Shown here: positions 20,465 through 45,369 of the stretch, piece by piece
Layout: each line of letters opens with the position of its first letter
How positions within the stretch are numbered: position 1 is the first letter of the stretch
From: Thermoleophilia bacterium
Lineage (GTDB): Bacteria > Actinomycetota > Thermoleophilia > Miltoncostaeales > Miltoncostaeaceae
Length of the DNA stretch: 48,617 nt
NCBI GenBank assembly: GCA_020848615.1
Contig: JADLHW010000042.1
Span: 1-48,617 of the forward strand
Reading direction: 5' to 3'
Position numbers and translations under genes: made by a program
The notes under the pieces: generated by a model
The model's database searches: none
The model's input: the letters and a program-made list of their open reading frames with translations, nothing else
Told to the model about the DNA's origin: nothing

Positions 20465-20718
20465 GCGGCTGGACCGCCGTGCTCGGCGAGCTGGCCGCGG
20501 CCGGCGGCACCGTCCCGCAGATCGCCGCCCGCCTCGCGATCCCCGAGCCGCTGGTGGCGGCCATCGTGGCGCACGCCGCCCGGATGGGGCTGGTGCAGGT
20601 CGGCGGGGCGTGCGGCACGTCCTGCGGCACCGCGCAAACCGCGTGCGCCGGCTGCCCGGTCTCGGCGGCGGTGCCCGGCGCCCGCCCCCGAGGCGTCGCA
20701 CCGGTCACCCCGGGGTAG
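20461..20718 (+). CDS. FeoC-like winged-helix protein with four-cysteine cluster
   Basis: 85 residues from GTG 20461, overlapping the feoB stop as GTGA. Residues 1-48 look like a small helix-turn-helix (LGELAAAGGTVPQIAARLAIPEPLVAAIVAHAARMGLVQ). They are followed by cysteines 51, 55, 62 and 65 (C-x3-C-x6-C-x2-C), the arrangement expected for the iron-sulfur or iron-sensing loop of FeoC. A flexible Pro/Gly/Ala tail follows. FeoC proteins modulate FeoB stability or activity. The overlap with feoB supports that role here, although sequence similarity to known FeoC is low. Confidence 0.75.
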   Translation: MSGWTAVLGELAAAGGTVPQIAARLAIPEPLVAAIVAHAARMGLVQVGGACGTSCGTAQTACAGCPVSAAVPGARPRGVAPVTPG

Positions 20719-20758
20719 TGTGCTCCTGAGCCGGCATCGGCACGGAAGGGGATGGAGC

Positions 20759-21757
20759 ATGGAAGATCAGGCGACGCGCACGGCGGTACCCGGCGCGGAG
20801 GACCTCGAGCGGTACCGCACGGAGCTCACGGGCTACTGCTACCGGATGCTCGGCGCCGCGGACGCCGAGGACGCCGTCCAGGAGGCCATGCTGCGGGCCT
20901 GGCGGGCGCTCGACCGCTTCGAGGGCAGGTCGCAGCTGCGCTCCTGGCTGTACCGCATCGCCACGAACGTGTGCATCGACATGCTGGACGGCCGCAAGCG
21001 TCGGGCGATGCCCATGGACCTCGGTCCCGCGGCGGCACCGGAGGCCGCGAACCTCAACCCGCTGCCGGAGGCGGAGTGGATCCAGCCCATGCCGGACGCC
21101 ATGATGCTGCCCGAGTCGGACCCGGCCGAGGCCGCCGTGGCGCGGGAGACGGTCCGCGTGGCCTTCGTGGCCGCCCTCCAGGTGCTCCCGCCGCGGCAGC
21201 GCGCCGTGCTCATCCTGTGCGAGGTGCTGCGCTGGAGCGCCCAGGAGACCGCCGAGCTGCTGGAGACCAGCGTCGCGTCGGTGAACAGCGCCCTGCAGCG
21301 GGCCCGGGCGACGCTGTCGGCCCGGGACCTGGACCGCGACGCGGTGGGCGCCGCCCCGGAGGGTGCCGACGCCGAGCTGCTCGCGCGGTACGTGACGGCC
21401 TTCGAGGGCTACGACCTGGACGCCCTCACCGAGCTCATCCACGAGGACGCCGTCCAGTCAATGCCCCCTTTTGGCCTGTGGCTGCGCGGCCGCGGCGACA
21501 TGTTCACCTGGTGGTGGGGGCCCGGCATCGCATGCCGGGGGTCGCGCGTGCTGCCGGCGGGCACCGCGAACGGGCTGCCGGCATTCGCGCAGTACAAGCC
21601 CGCAGCGGACGGGAGCGGCTACGAGCCGTGGGCCCTGCAGCTGGTGCGGGCCGAGGGCGGGCGCATCGCTGAGCTCACGTTCTTCCTGGAGGTGGGGACC
21701 CTGTTCCCGTTGTTCGGCATGCCCCTCCGGCTGGACCGGGACGGCGCTCCGGCCTGA
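20759..21757 (+). CDS. SigG-like sigma-70 factor (TIGR02960 type) with C-terminal SnoaL-like domain
   Basis: 332 residues. Region 2 is visible in YCYRMLGAADAEDAVQEAMLRAW and LRSWLYRIATNVCIDML. Region 4 is in LQVLPPRQRAVLILCEVLRWSAQETAELLETSVASVNSALQRARATL. Residues about 210-330 form a SnoaL-like fold (AFEGYDLDALTELIHEDAVQSMPPF), as in SigG/SigJ-class ECF factors, which use this tail in place of a separate anti-sigma. ATG 20759 is chosen because the earlier ATG at 20752 is in another frame. The family is linked to stress and DNA damage responses; neighbouring dinB is consistent with this. The 3' end overlaps the STAS gene on the other strand by 83 bases. Confidence 0.9.
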   Translation: MEDQATRTAVPGAEDLERYRTELTGYCYRMLGAADAEDAVQEAMLRAWRALDRFEGRSQLRSWLYRIATNVCIDMLDGRKRRAMPMDLGPAAAPEAANLNPLPEAEWIQPMPDAMMLPESDPAEAAVARETVRVAFVAALQVLPPRQRAVLILCEVLRWSAQETAELLETSVASVNSALQRARATLSARDLDRDAVGAAPEGADAELLARYVTAFEGYDLDALTELIHEDAVQSMPPFGLWLRGRGDMFTWWWGPGIACRGSRVLPAGTANGLPAFAQYKPAADGSGYEPWALQLVRAEGGRIAELTFFLEVGTLFPLFGMPLRLDRDGAPA

Positions 21758-42622: not shown

Positions 42623-42666
42623 CGGACCGGCCTCCCGCACCGCCGGGGAGGTCACCCCGTCACGAC
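42616..42666. terminator. Nested bidirectional terminator
   Basis: Outer ten-base stem (42616-42625 with 42657-42666) and an inner CCTCCC/GGGAGG stem. It spans the stops of the convergent FtsX gene (42622) and membrane protein gene (42652). Confidence 0.6.
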
Positions 42667-44553
42667 CGCGCGGCCGGCGGGCCCGCTGAACACGATGCGC
42701 TGCCCGAACGGCTTCCCGCCCTCCGTGACCGCCATGCCGTTCACCACGGGGAAGCTGCGGCCGTCCAGTTCGGCCCGGTCGTACCCGTCCCGGACGACGA
42801 AGATCCGGCGGATCCCGGCCGTGGTCCGCTCGGTTGAGACGTCCACGGCGGGCCCCGCGGCGTCCCTCGCGGCCGGGAAGCGGTCGCAGCTGGACACCGA
42901 GGTGGGCGCCGGTGCCCGGTGGCGGACCGGGGCCACGACGACGACCTGCGCCGGCGCAGCCTGCAGACCTGAACTCGCCGACACCGAGATCCAGAGGCGC
43001 AGGCCCCCGGCCGGTCCGAACGCCCACACGCGCTCGCGCTCGGCGGCGCATGACCCGGCGACGGGCACGGCTCCCGGCACGTCGGCGGGGTCGAGGGGCT
43101 CCCGCGTGGTGAGCCACCACGCCTGGCGGGGGATCTCGAGCGGCGGCATGCCGGCGCTCCGCGGCTCGAGTTGCAGCGCGTACGTGATCGCGTCGATGTC
43201 GAGCCGCGCATCCGGCAGGGGGCCGCTCGGCAGGCGGCCGGACCGCACGGCGACGCGTCCCTCGCGATCCAGGACCACCGTCGCAGGTGCGCGGACGCCC
43301 AGCGCGGCCTGCAGCGATCCGTCCGGGTCGATCGCCAGGGAGGCGGACGTATCGCGGCGCAGGACGCGTGCCGCCGCGGCTCGGCCGCCGTCGACCACGA
43401 CGATCGTCCCGGACCCGTACACGGCCGTGGGCGGGACCCAGCGTGCCGATGACGCCTCGGCCCGGGTCCGCACGAACAGCAGCACGCGCACGGTGCCGCG
43501 CAGGGCGCCCAGCGTGGCGCGTTCGAACGCCAGCGTCCCGGGGCCCGCGGGGAACTCGGTGAGCGCGAGGGCCGTCGCGGGGGACGGCGACGTCCGGGTA
43601 CCGCCGGGTGACCCGAGCACGATGTCCACCCGCGCATCGGTCGGGGCGGTGGTCCCCGGGGCCGGCGACTGCCGCAGGACGCGGCCCGCGGGCACCGCGT
43701 CGCTGGGCTCGGCGGTCGTCGACCCCGCGGTGAGCAGCGATGCCTCCAGGAGCCGGCCGGCGTCGCCTCCGCGGGCGCCGGGGAGGTCCGGCACGGTGAC
43801 CGTTGCGATGGCGCGGCGGTCGGCGGGGGCCAGCGGCATCGTCGTCTGTCCGTCGGTCCGCAGACGGCGGCGGGTGCCATCGGCGTAGGTCGCGGTGACC
43901 GCGGCCGTCCCCACGGGGGCCACGGCCACGTTCCGCGTCACGGGGATCGCGCCGCGCGGTCCGCGCAGCCGCACCCCGTCGGGCACCAGGATCACGGGCC
44001 GTTGCCGTCCGGTCCAGGTGACCTGGACCAGCGCCGACCGCTCGACCGCCGCGGGCAGGCCGCACGCCGTCCAGGCCCGGACGTGCGTGACGATGGCCTG
44101 GCCGGGCTTCGCCGCCGGGGTGGGGCCGGGTTCGGGCCCCACCAGCGACAGGCACACGAGGCCGTCCCGGTTCCGCCCGGCGAGGATCGTGGTGTCGCCG
44201 ACCCGTCGGACCGTGCGCAGCGTCGATGCCGCCAGGCCGGGGAAGTTCAGGTCTTCGACGGTCACGCCCAGCGCCGTGAGGTCGCTGGGACTGCCACCCT
44301 TCAGCACCGCGAAGGCGGCGGGCGGCAGGGGTGCGGGGCGCTTTGCGCCGCGCGGCAGGATGAGCACCAGGAACACCGCGAACCCGGCGATCATGGCGGC
44401 GGCGGCGAGGCCGCCGCCCCACGAGCGACGACCTGGCCGGCGGCGCCGGCCGGGAGCGGCCATCAGGCGGTTCAGCATCCGCTCCCGCGACCCCGTGGGA
44501 GGGTCGTCCGGCCGGAGCACCTCGCGCAGGCGCGCCTCGAGGTCAGCGGGCAT
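42652..44553 (-). CDS. Anti-sigma-like membrane protein with PASTA and cysteine-less thioredoxin-like domains
   Basis: 633 residues. The cytoplasmic N-terminus (1-45) is short and Arg-rich with no zinc-site histidines or cysteines. TM helix 46-67. The outer part has a beta-rich segment (80-245), a PASTA domain (252-314: VTVPDLPGARGGDAGRLLEASLLTAG and LRQSPAPGTTAPTDARVDIVLG), and a redoxin-like stretch (335-462). In that stretch LRGTVRVLLFVRT takes the place of the strand before CXXC, and LQAALGVRAPATVVLDREGRVAVRSG matches the cis-Pro and C-terminal strands. The region after 470 is unassigned. The start overlaps the ECF sigma gene by 11 bases, so it is the likely partner anti-sigma or sensor. 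Confidence 0.75.
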   Translation of the reverse strand: MPADLEARLREVLRPDDPPTGSRERMLNRLMAAPGRRRRPGRRSWGGGLAAAAMIAGFAVFLVLILPRGAKRPAPLPPAAFAVLKGGSPSDLTALGVTVEDLNFPGLAASTLRTVRRVGDTTILAGRNRDGLVCLSLVGPEPGPTPAAKPGQAIVTHVRAWTACGLPAAVERSALVQVTWTGRQRPVILVPDGVRLRGPRGAIPVTRNVAVAPVGTAAVTATYADGTRRRLRTDGQTTMPLAPADRRAIATVTVPDLPGARGGDAGRLLEASLLTAGSTTAEPSDAVPAGRVLRQSPAPGTTAPTDARVDIVLGSPGGTRTSPSPATALALTEFPAGPGTLAFERATLGALRGTVRVLLFVRTRAEASSARWVPPTAVYGSGTIVVVDGGRAAAARVLRRDTSASLAIDPDGSLQAALGVRAPATVVLDREGRVAVRSGRLPSGPLPDARLDIDAITYALQLEPRSAGMPPLEIPRQAWWLTTREPLDPADVPGAVPVAGSCAAERERVWAFGPAGGLRLWISVSASSGLQAAPAQVVVVAPVRHRAPAPTSVSSCDRFPAARDAAGPAVDVSTERTTAGIRRIFVVRDGYDRAELDGRSFPVVNGMAVTEGGKPFGQRIVFSGPAGRAVVTG

Positions 44554-45058
44554 CGGTCACCTCCAGTTGCGCGCGCAGGCCGGCCAGTCCCCGTGCGAGC
44601 CGGGAATGCACCGTGCCGACGGGCAACGACATGGCGTCGGCGATCTCGGCCGGGGTCAGGTCCATGCCGTAGCGCAGCGCCACCACGGCGCGCCGGTCGG
44701 CCGGCAGGCTCCGCACCGCGGCCAGCAACCCCGGCTCCCAGCCCTCCCGTCCGCTCTCGACGGGCGGGGCATCGTCGATGGGGACGAGCCGCCGGTCACG
44801 GCGGATGGCGTTGAGCGCCTGATTCACCACGATCCGCCGCAGCCACGCGCCGAACGGTCGCCGTCCGTCGTAGCGGTCCAGCTGGGCGAGGGCCCGCAGC
44901 ATCGCGTCCTGGGCGACGTCCTCCGCCCGATGGCCGTCGCCGCAGATCGCCCTCGCGGTGCGCCACGCCTCGTCCCAGTGCCGGCCGAACAGGTCGGCCC
45001 GCGCCTGCGGTGAGCCGGCACGTGCCGCCTCCACCAGATCGTGTTCGTCGCTCGTCAT
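44543..45058 (-). CDS. ECF-family RNA polymerase sigma factor
   Basis: 171 residues. Region 2: RHWDEAWRTARAICGDGHRAEDVAQDAMLRALAQLDRYDGRRPFGAWLRRIVVNQALNAIRRDRR. Region 4: LLAAVRSLPADRRAVVALRYGMDLTPAEIADAMSLPVGTVHSRLARGLAGLRAQL. Both are typical. The short size and coupling to a membrane protein gene fit ECF regulation by an envelope sensor. ATG 45058 has GGGGTGA upstream. No consensus ECF -35 (GGAAC) is seen at a proper distance, so autoregulation is not established. Confidence 0.94.
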   Translation of the reverse strand: MTSDEHDLVEAARAGSPQARADLFGRHWDEAWRTARAICGDGHRAEDVAQDAMLRALAQLDRYDGRRPFGAWLRRIVVNQALNAIRRDRRLVPIDDAPPVESGREGWEPGLLAAVRSLPADRRAVVALRYGMDLTPAEIADAMSLPVGTVHSRLARGLAGLRAQLEVTDAR

Positions 45059-45369
45059 TCACCCCGTCAACATGCGAATCGCAGGAGCGCGTCCCGGCAT
45101 CTTCGCGGAGGTCCCGGGCGGTCCGGCGGTGCTCATCCGGACGGACGTCGTCCCGCGGCGAAACCCGGACCGGGGGGACATCGATCGCCCATGCGGCGGG
45201 ACGACGGTCATCGGGGAACCCCATCGGCTCGGCCGCCGGAGCCGCCGCGGGTAGCCTGCCGGTACCCCCGAAGGACTGGGGCCAGGGCCTGGGCCGGTAC
45301 TCCTCTCCACCGTCCCAGGCCCGCCGGCTCCCGCGATCCTGGATGCGCCATGGCGACCCTCCTCGCGCG
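45059..45369. other. 311-base divergent region between ECF sigma and DUF1801 genes
   Basis: It holds an 11-bp perfect inverted repeat (45146-45156 with 45196-45206, 39-base spacer), a -10-like TAGCCT (45252-45257) toward the plus strand, and a GGGGAACCCC run near 45213. No further gene is evident. Confidence 0.4.

Follow-up and report, generated by a model that had tools for sequence, protein, structure and literature searches.

How an ECF sigma factor can be coupled to a membrane protein that carries a PASTA domain next to a thioredoxin-like fold without cysteines, and where such an exported part comes from, are the questions raised by a gene pair found in a Thermoleophilia bacterium. To our knowledge, signal recognition by most membrane anti-sigma factors is unknown. 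We analysed the pair within a 48,617-nt stretch of DNA (the window) and searched for its relatives among 399 genomes of the class.

The sigma/partner operon

The operon, its promoter and the sigma-facing end of the partner were placed in the window as follows.

45067..45095, minus strand: predicted ECF-type promoter of the operon (-35 GGGACGC at 45089-45095, N16, -10 TGTTGA at 45067-45072)
44543..45058, minus strand: ECF sigma gene, 171 aa, regions 2 and 4 only
42652..44553, minus strand: membrane partner, probable anti-sigma factor, 633 aa, overlapping the sigma gene by 11 nt
44410..44553, minus strand: cytoplasmic N-terminus of the partner (residues 1-48), the putative sigma-binding part, with two predicted helices and a basic stretch before the membrane
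44356..44409, minus strand: transmembrane helix of the partner (residues 49-66), from hydropathy and alignment

The sigma protein matched the Pfam families Sigma70_r2 (6.9e-17 at residues 23-90) and Sigma70_r4_2 (1e-12 at 111-159) and lacked region 3, as expected of an ECF (group 4) factor. The partner start codon lies 11 nt inside the 3′ end of the sigma gene; this overlap, together with regions 2 and 4, bore out the first-pass annotation, which had described an ECF sigma coupled to a membrane protein. On one side, convergent with the pair, is an ABC transporter whose permease is FtsX-like; on the other are a DUF1801 gene, which is divergent, and a hybrid sensor kinase. The pair looks like an operon of its own. 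Elsewhere in the window, a 430-aa frame at 20465-21754 (+) gave a weak match to the sigma profile (5.5e-11, at 20858-21046) and is possibly a second, diverged sigma factor.

Besides the window, full-length copies of the partner occurred, among the 399 genomes, only in Actinobacteria bacterium Ga0077560 (G001), the nearest relative in the same genus, with three copies, two of them in tandem, and in KLAP93 (G004), with two. Each stands directly behind a sigma gene, with an overlap of 4, 8 or 11 nt. A single-protein search of genome contigs with the partner gave no match. By sigma profile, close members of the sigma family numbered eight in the bacterium's own genome (the window's included), ten in G001 and four in G004; relatives were 43-85% identical to the window sigma, and a homolog at E <= 1e-38 was present in 109 of the 399 genomes. 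Of 40 class-wide sigma loci that we fetched, two were truncated at contig ends. All 38 testable loci had a downstream gene that overlaps the sigma gene and encodes a protein with a membrane helix behind a short cytoplasmic segment; this count leans towards the finding, because partners were accepted in the search only if they had a hydrophobic stretch close to the N-terminus. The pair is thus conserved both in the six full-length cases and in these class-wide homologs, a check that the first-pass annotation had proposed.

Three further loci were noted. One G001 contig (L031:4842-11226, C115) carries a tandem of two closely similar sigma/partner pairs, both partners being 632 aa long; here the window-type switch was recently duplicated. 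At a contig end immediately before the L034 sigma gene (L034:7365-7490; G004:C24:109364-109489) lie the 43 C-terminal residues of a further partner of the window type, so that the assembly has probably interrupted a tandem pair. At L076:2640-3200 (G000:C135, about 64640-65200, minus strand), the frame of a sigma paralog ends in PVTITFG, the final residues of an L066-type partner; most of the partner has apparently been deleted, which joined the sigma's end to the partner tail.

We found a two-block motif upstream of the sigma genes that is common to the paralogs and whose distance from the start codon is short and almost constant. Its leave-one-out score over 16 non-orthologous genes was 121.5; 40 dinucleotide shuffles gave 102.5 ± 3.2 and at most 109.7, and a control region lying farther from the sigma genes on the upstream side gave 109.0. 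The motif scored above all 40 shuffles, and the predicted promoter before the sigma factor's own operon is of the GGAAC-like/CGT-like ECF kind. Its -35 letters tend to track the sigma clade. Because this shared motif sits before the sigma gene, the operon is probably autoregulated. In the window the motif ends 8 nt before the sigma ATG, and the sequence suggests that the operon message is nearly leaderless. A search of the bacterium's own genome for the exact promoter returned three sites, one being that of the operon itself and the other two resembling coding sequence; when one mismatch was allowed, 12 sites were obtained, against 4 for the reversed pattern. An exact match to GGGACGC-N16-TGTTGA was present upstream of a homolog in G007 (L207:1487-2833), which has this window-type promoter pattern, yet a partner with a different, nameless exported part.

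At the other end of the coupling, residues 1-48 of the partner are assigned to the cytoplasm because a basic stretch precedes the membrane helix. The helix is directly followed by a PRG motif (67-69), kept in most paralogs of the genus. The closest NCBIfam resemblances of the pair were to the actinobacterial SigE family for the sigma (TIGR02983, 2.8e-31) and, for the partner N-terminus, to the CU044_5270 family (NF038083, 8.6e-6) and an anti-sigma factor model (NF052375, 2.7e-5), all under their curated cut-offs; the literature searched yielded no study on CU044_5270. When the first 110 residues of 60 partners were scanned (E <= 1), CU044_5270 was matched in 41 and the NCBIfam anti-sigma factor in 25. 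These family matches are the best evidence at the sequence level for a putative anti-sigma domain.

The type of that domain was then considered. The class I anti-sigma domain averages 101 aa in four helices, often with an Hx3Cx2C motif, which about 44% of class I domains lack (PMC7406223). The partner has about 48 aa before the membrane and zero Cys or His in residues 1-48, and so does not fall into class I (ASDI). The first-pass annotation had remarked on the missing zinc site: the absence itself was confirmed, but we rejected it as a special sign, because about 44% of class I domains also do without the motif and the cytoplasmic part is shorter than their mean. RsgI_N was not matched in Pfam or NCBIfam. 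Two short helices were predicted at residues 3-12 and 22-31, where the structural model is of low confidence (pLDDT <60), and they would fit the class II type. Like CnrY-type class II factors (PMC7406223), the partner has a short cytoplasmic stretch with two predicted helices and then a membrane span, a likeness of length and helix count only.

Instead of inhibiting the sigma, the partner could also act positively, as a co-factor or scaffold by which the sigma is recruited to the membrane or activated there, given that family resemblance is what speaks for inhibition and that the cytoplasmic part is short and without the class I signature. We consider this improbable, since anti-sigma models, though below cut-off, are matched across the family and anti-sigma factors are usually encoded in just such operons, in which the genes for a sigma and a membrane partner overlap (PMC7406223, PMC4711584).

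The exported part of the partner

Beyond the membrane helix, four domains were delimited.

43834..44319, minus strand: exported domain D1 (residues 79-240); 6 of 6 full-length copies conserve Cys134 and Cys164
43612..43800, minus strand: PASTA domain (residues 252-314), Pfam 2e-11
43150..43602, minus strand: redoxin (DsbE/CcmG/ResA-like) fold without cysteines (residues 318-468), from predicted structure
43450..43461, minus strand: lost CXXC position (residues 365-368, AEAS), from alignment with intact CEPC and CGPC relatives
42655..43146, minus strand: C-terminal all-beta domain (residues 470-633), which recurs, sometimes twice, in paralogous partners

The PASTA domain (PF03793) scored 44.1 bits against a gathering score of 23.2, was present in all six full-length copies and, using a profile, matched the PknB PASTA in the PDB at 2.2e-6, which upheld the first-pass reading of a PASTA outside the membrane. 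PknB-type kinases likewise carry PASTA outside a single membrane span; unlike them, the partner has one PASTA only and no kinase, and its cytoplasmic part is an anti-sigma-like stretch. The sensing of wall fragments, to which the PASTA domain alone points, is plausible at best.

The segment behind PASTA was below threshold by sequence, with Pfam Redoxin matched in three of six members (best E 0.0017), and was recognized by structure. AlphaFold, run with six sequences, gave a mean pLDDT of 60.8 for the whole partner and about 70-88 over most of this segment. The model of residues 318-468 aligned with DsbE, CcmG, ResA and peroxiredoxins (best Z 13.6, 2.6 Å over 131 residues, 3gl3), and the same superfamily dominated the Foldseek list. 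The thioredoxin-like fold that had been proposed for residues 335-462 was therefore recovered, with its start moved to about 318 by the structural placement.

The positions of the CXXC cysteines are A365 and S368 in the window protein, the string LLFVRTRAEASS quoted by the first-pass annotation being present at residues 358-369, and there is no cysteine anywhere in 318-468. Both positions are non-Cys in all six full-length copies and in a shorter paralog, L064. As a control, a profile of the cysteine-less domains was searched against related genomes and picked out stand-alone thioredoxins (1e-7 to 1e-8), every one of which has a CXXC (WCGPC/CEPC). The loss is therefore common to this lineage rather than an artefact of sequencing. 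Most of the cis-Pro strand and of the LDRxGR motif is retained, so the domain resembles the DsbE/CcmG/ResA/TlpA thiol-disulfide oxidoreductases in fold, strand and motif and differs from them in that the seven partner-type copies lack the catalytic CXXC and are attached to an ECF partner.

The G019 partner L234 has, by contrast, an intact redoxin with CEPC (AhpC-TSA 8.7e-17, dsbE 1.4e-15). The earlier idea that a redox enzyme had become a binding module thus held for the loss of catalysis relative to an intact relative and in part for the wider interpretation; on evolutionary grounds, the alignments support the view that a redox enzyme became a putative sensing module. Alternatively, the redoxin may be a passive structural spacer without a ligand, sensing being left to PASTA or the beta domains. 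We regard this as possible although somewhat doubtful: there is no cysteine and no other obvious active-site residue, only R362 being invariant near the old site, but the domain is kept in seven diverged copies, one of which (L064) has it without PASTA, and the intact redoxin of L234 sits on another scaffold.

The C-terminal domain has no Pfam name. A nine-sequence model of residues 466-633 was all-beta and confident (pLDDT 83.3, pTM 0.82); a convincing match in the PDB was not obtained, with no Foldseek match at E <0.001 and a best VIA Z of 4.4. Compared by hhalign, D1 and the C-terminal domain matched weakly (probability 20%, E 0.0012), the C-terminal profile matched the D1 region of L032 (2e-4), and the C-terminal beta domain occurs twice in each of the L068, L070 and L071 partners. 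D1 and the C-terminal domain are likely to be an internal duplication.

Exchange of exported modules across the sigma family

Comparison of sequences across the class indicated that the partners of this ECF family keep the N-terminus and membrane helix and exchange exported modules, among them PASTA, redoxin, an MreC barrel, SecD P1 and beta-propellers. An MreC barrel was found in partners of G001 (L078, 3e-19) and G025 (L223, 2.9e-23), and the SecD P1 domain in those of G000 (L065) and G001 (L067) (1.3e-9; TIGR01129 2.1e-8); PASTA in the L032:953 partner fell just under the gathering score. Other partners have beta-propellers or nameless domains. Propeller-like repeats of the PD40/WD40/BNR type, several of them matched only weakly, are a common exported part (L242, L212, L226, L235 and other class-wide partners).

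The clearest exchange is between the redoxin-type L234 and the MreC-type L223, which are 48% identical over residues 1-285 and unrelated beyond, while their sigmas are sisters (support 100/98). The redoxin module stands behind sigmas of three clades and MreC behind those of two. Furthermore, L034 has a window-type ectodomain, yet its sigma groups with the sigmas that precede propeller-like partners (support 100/99); its short N-terminus is closer to that of the propeller-like partners than to the window's and does not follow the ectodomain, a comparison that is short and suggestive only. Similarity of sigmas correlated weakly with that of both the cytoplasmic part (Mantel r 0.30) and the ectodomain (0.23) of the partners. 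Linked genes correlate in any case.

These modules also allow the exported parts to be read as copies of envelope machine subunits (MreC, SecD, DsbE or a PASTA protein), each of which would compete for the free partner or substrate of its machine and thereby report on the loading of that machine. The MreC barrels and SecD P1 domains, the intact and cysteine-less redoxins and PASTA in partners of one family speak for such a reading, but many partners carry propellers or nameless domains that are not machine parts, and we think it rather unlikely. Only tentatively would we go further and suppose that the ECF family turned pieces of envelope machines (MreC, SecD, a DsbE-like redoxin, PASTA) into interchangeable anti-sigma sensors reporting on those machines, the window protein being a two-part version with its redox part disabled.

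A proposed switch and its precedents

The gene coupling, architecture, fold, cysteine loss, common promoter motif and module exchange, as read from the sequences, are in our judgement best explained, with good probability, by an autoregulated switch of an ECF sigma and a membrane anti-sigma factor whose sensor is exchangeable and derived from the envelope. For sigma binding, the direction of the signal, the ligand and proteolysis, we infer the following course. The short partner N-terminus would hold the sigma at the membrane, and exported D1, PASTA, the cysteine-less redoxin and the C-terminal beta domain would sense the state of the envelope, most likely through a PASTA-peptidoglycan contact and a protein contact made by the redoxin scaffold. 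An envelope signal would then release the sigma, probably by proteolysis with a site-2 protease, and the released sigma would transcribe its own operon and a further regulon. A site-2 protease homolog was found in the genome (E 1e-60) and also in 14 of 14 control genomes. Nearly all bacteria have such a protease, and because it is near universal, release by proteolysis is what we infer. A sensor that combines PASTA with two beta domains and a disabled redoxin is the best-supported account of the window protein, and it would be one of several exchangeable exported modules, many of which resemble envelope machine parts.

Clostridium thermocellum offers a precedent in its biomass-sensing SigI/RsgI pairs, where the GH10 enzyme domain of RsgI6 is barely active and works as a binding module (PMC4711584). 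The principle by which an anti-sigma factor turns an enzyme domain into a sensor that binds is therefore already known. Both systems consist of paralogous sigma/membrane anti-sigma pairs with exchangeable exported modules, but SigI is not an ECF factor, RsgI_N has about 165 aa and RsgI modules bind plant polysaccharides (PMC4711584), whereas several modules of the window family resemble envelope machine parts. In the literature searched, no anti-sigma factor was described as having an MreC, SecD or redoxin domain, although such a report may exist elsewhere, and an ECF family that uses parts of envelope machines appears to be new within that literature. The family offers near-ready natural swaps, in which the same sigma-facing scaffold bears either MreC or a redoxin and the same kind of redoxin occurs with or without its cysteines. 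With these swaps one can ask directly if the choice of signal depends on the exported module alone, and if cells keep watch on an envelope machine by means of a decoy of one of its parts.
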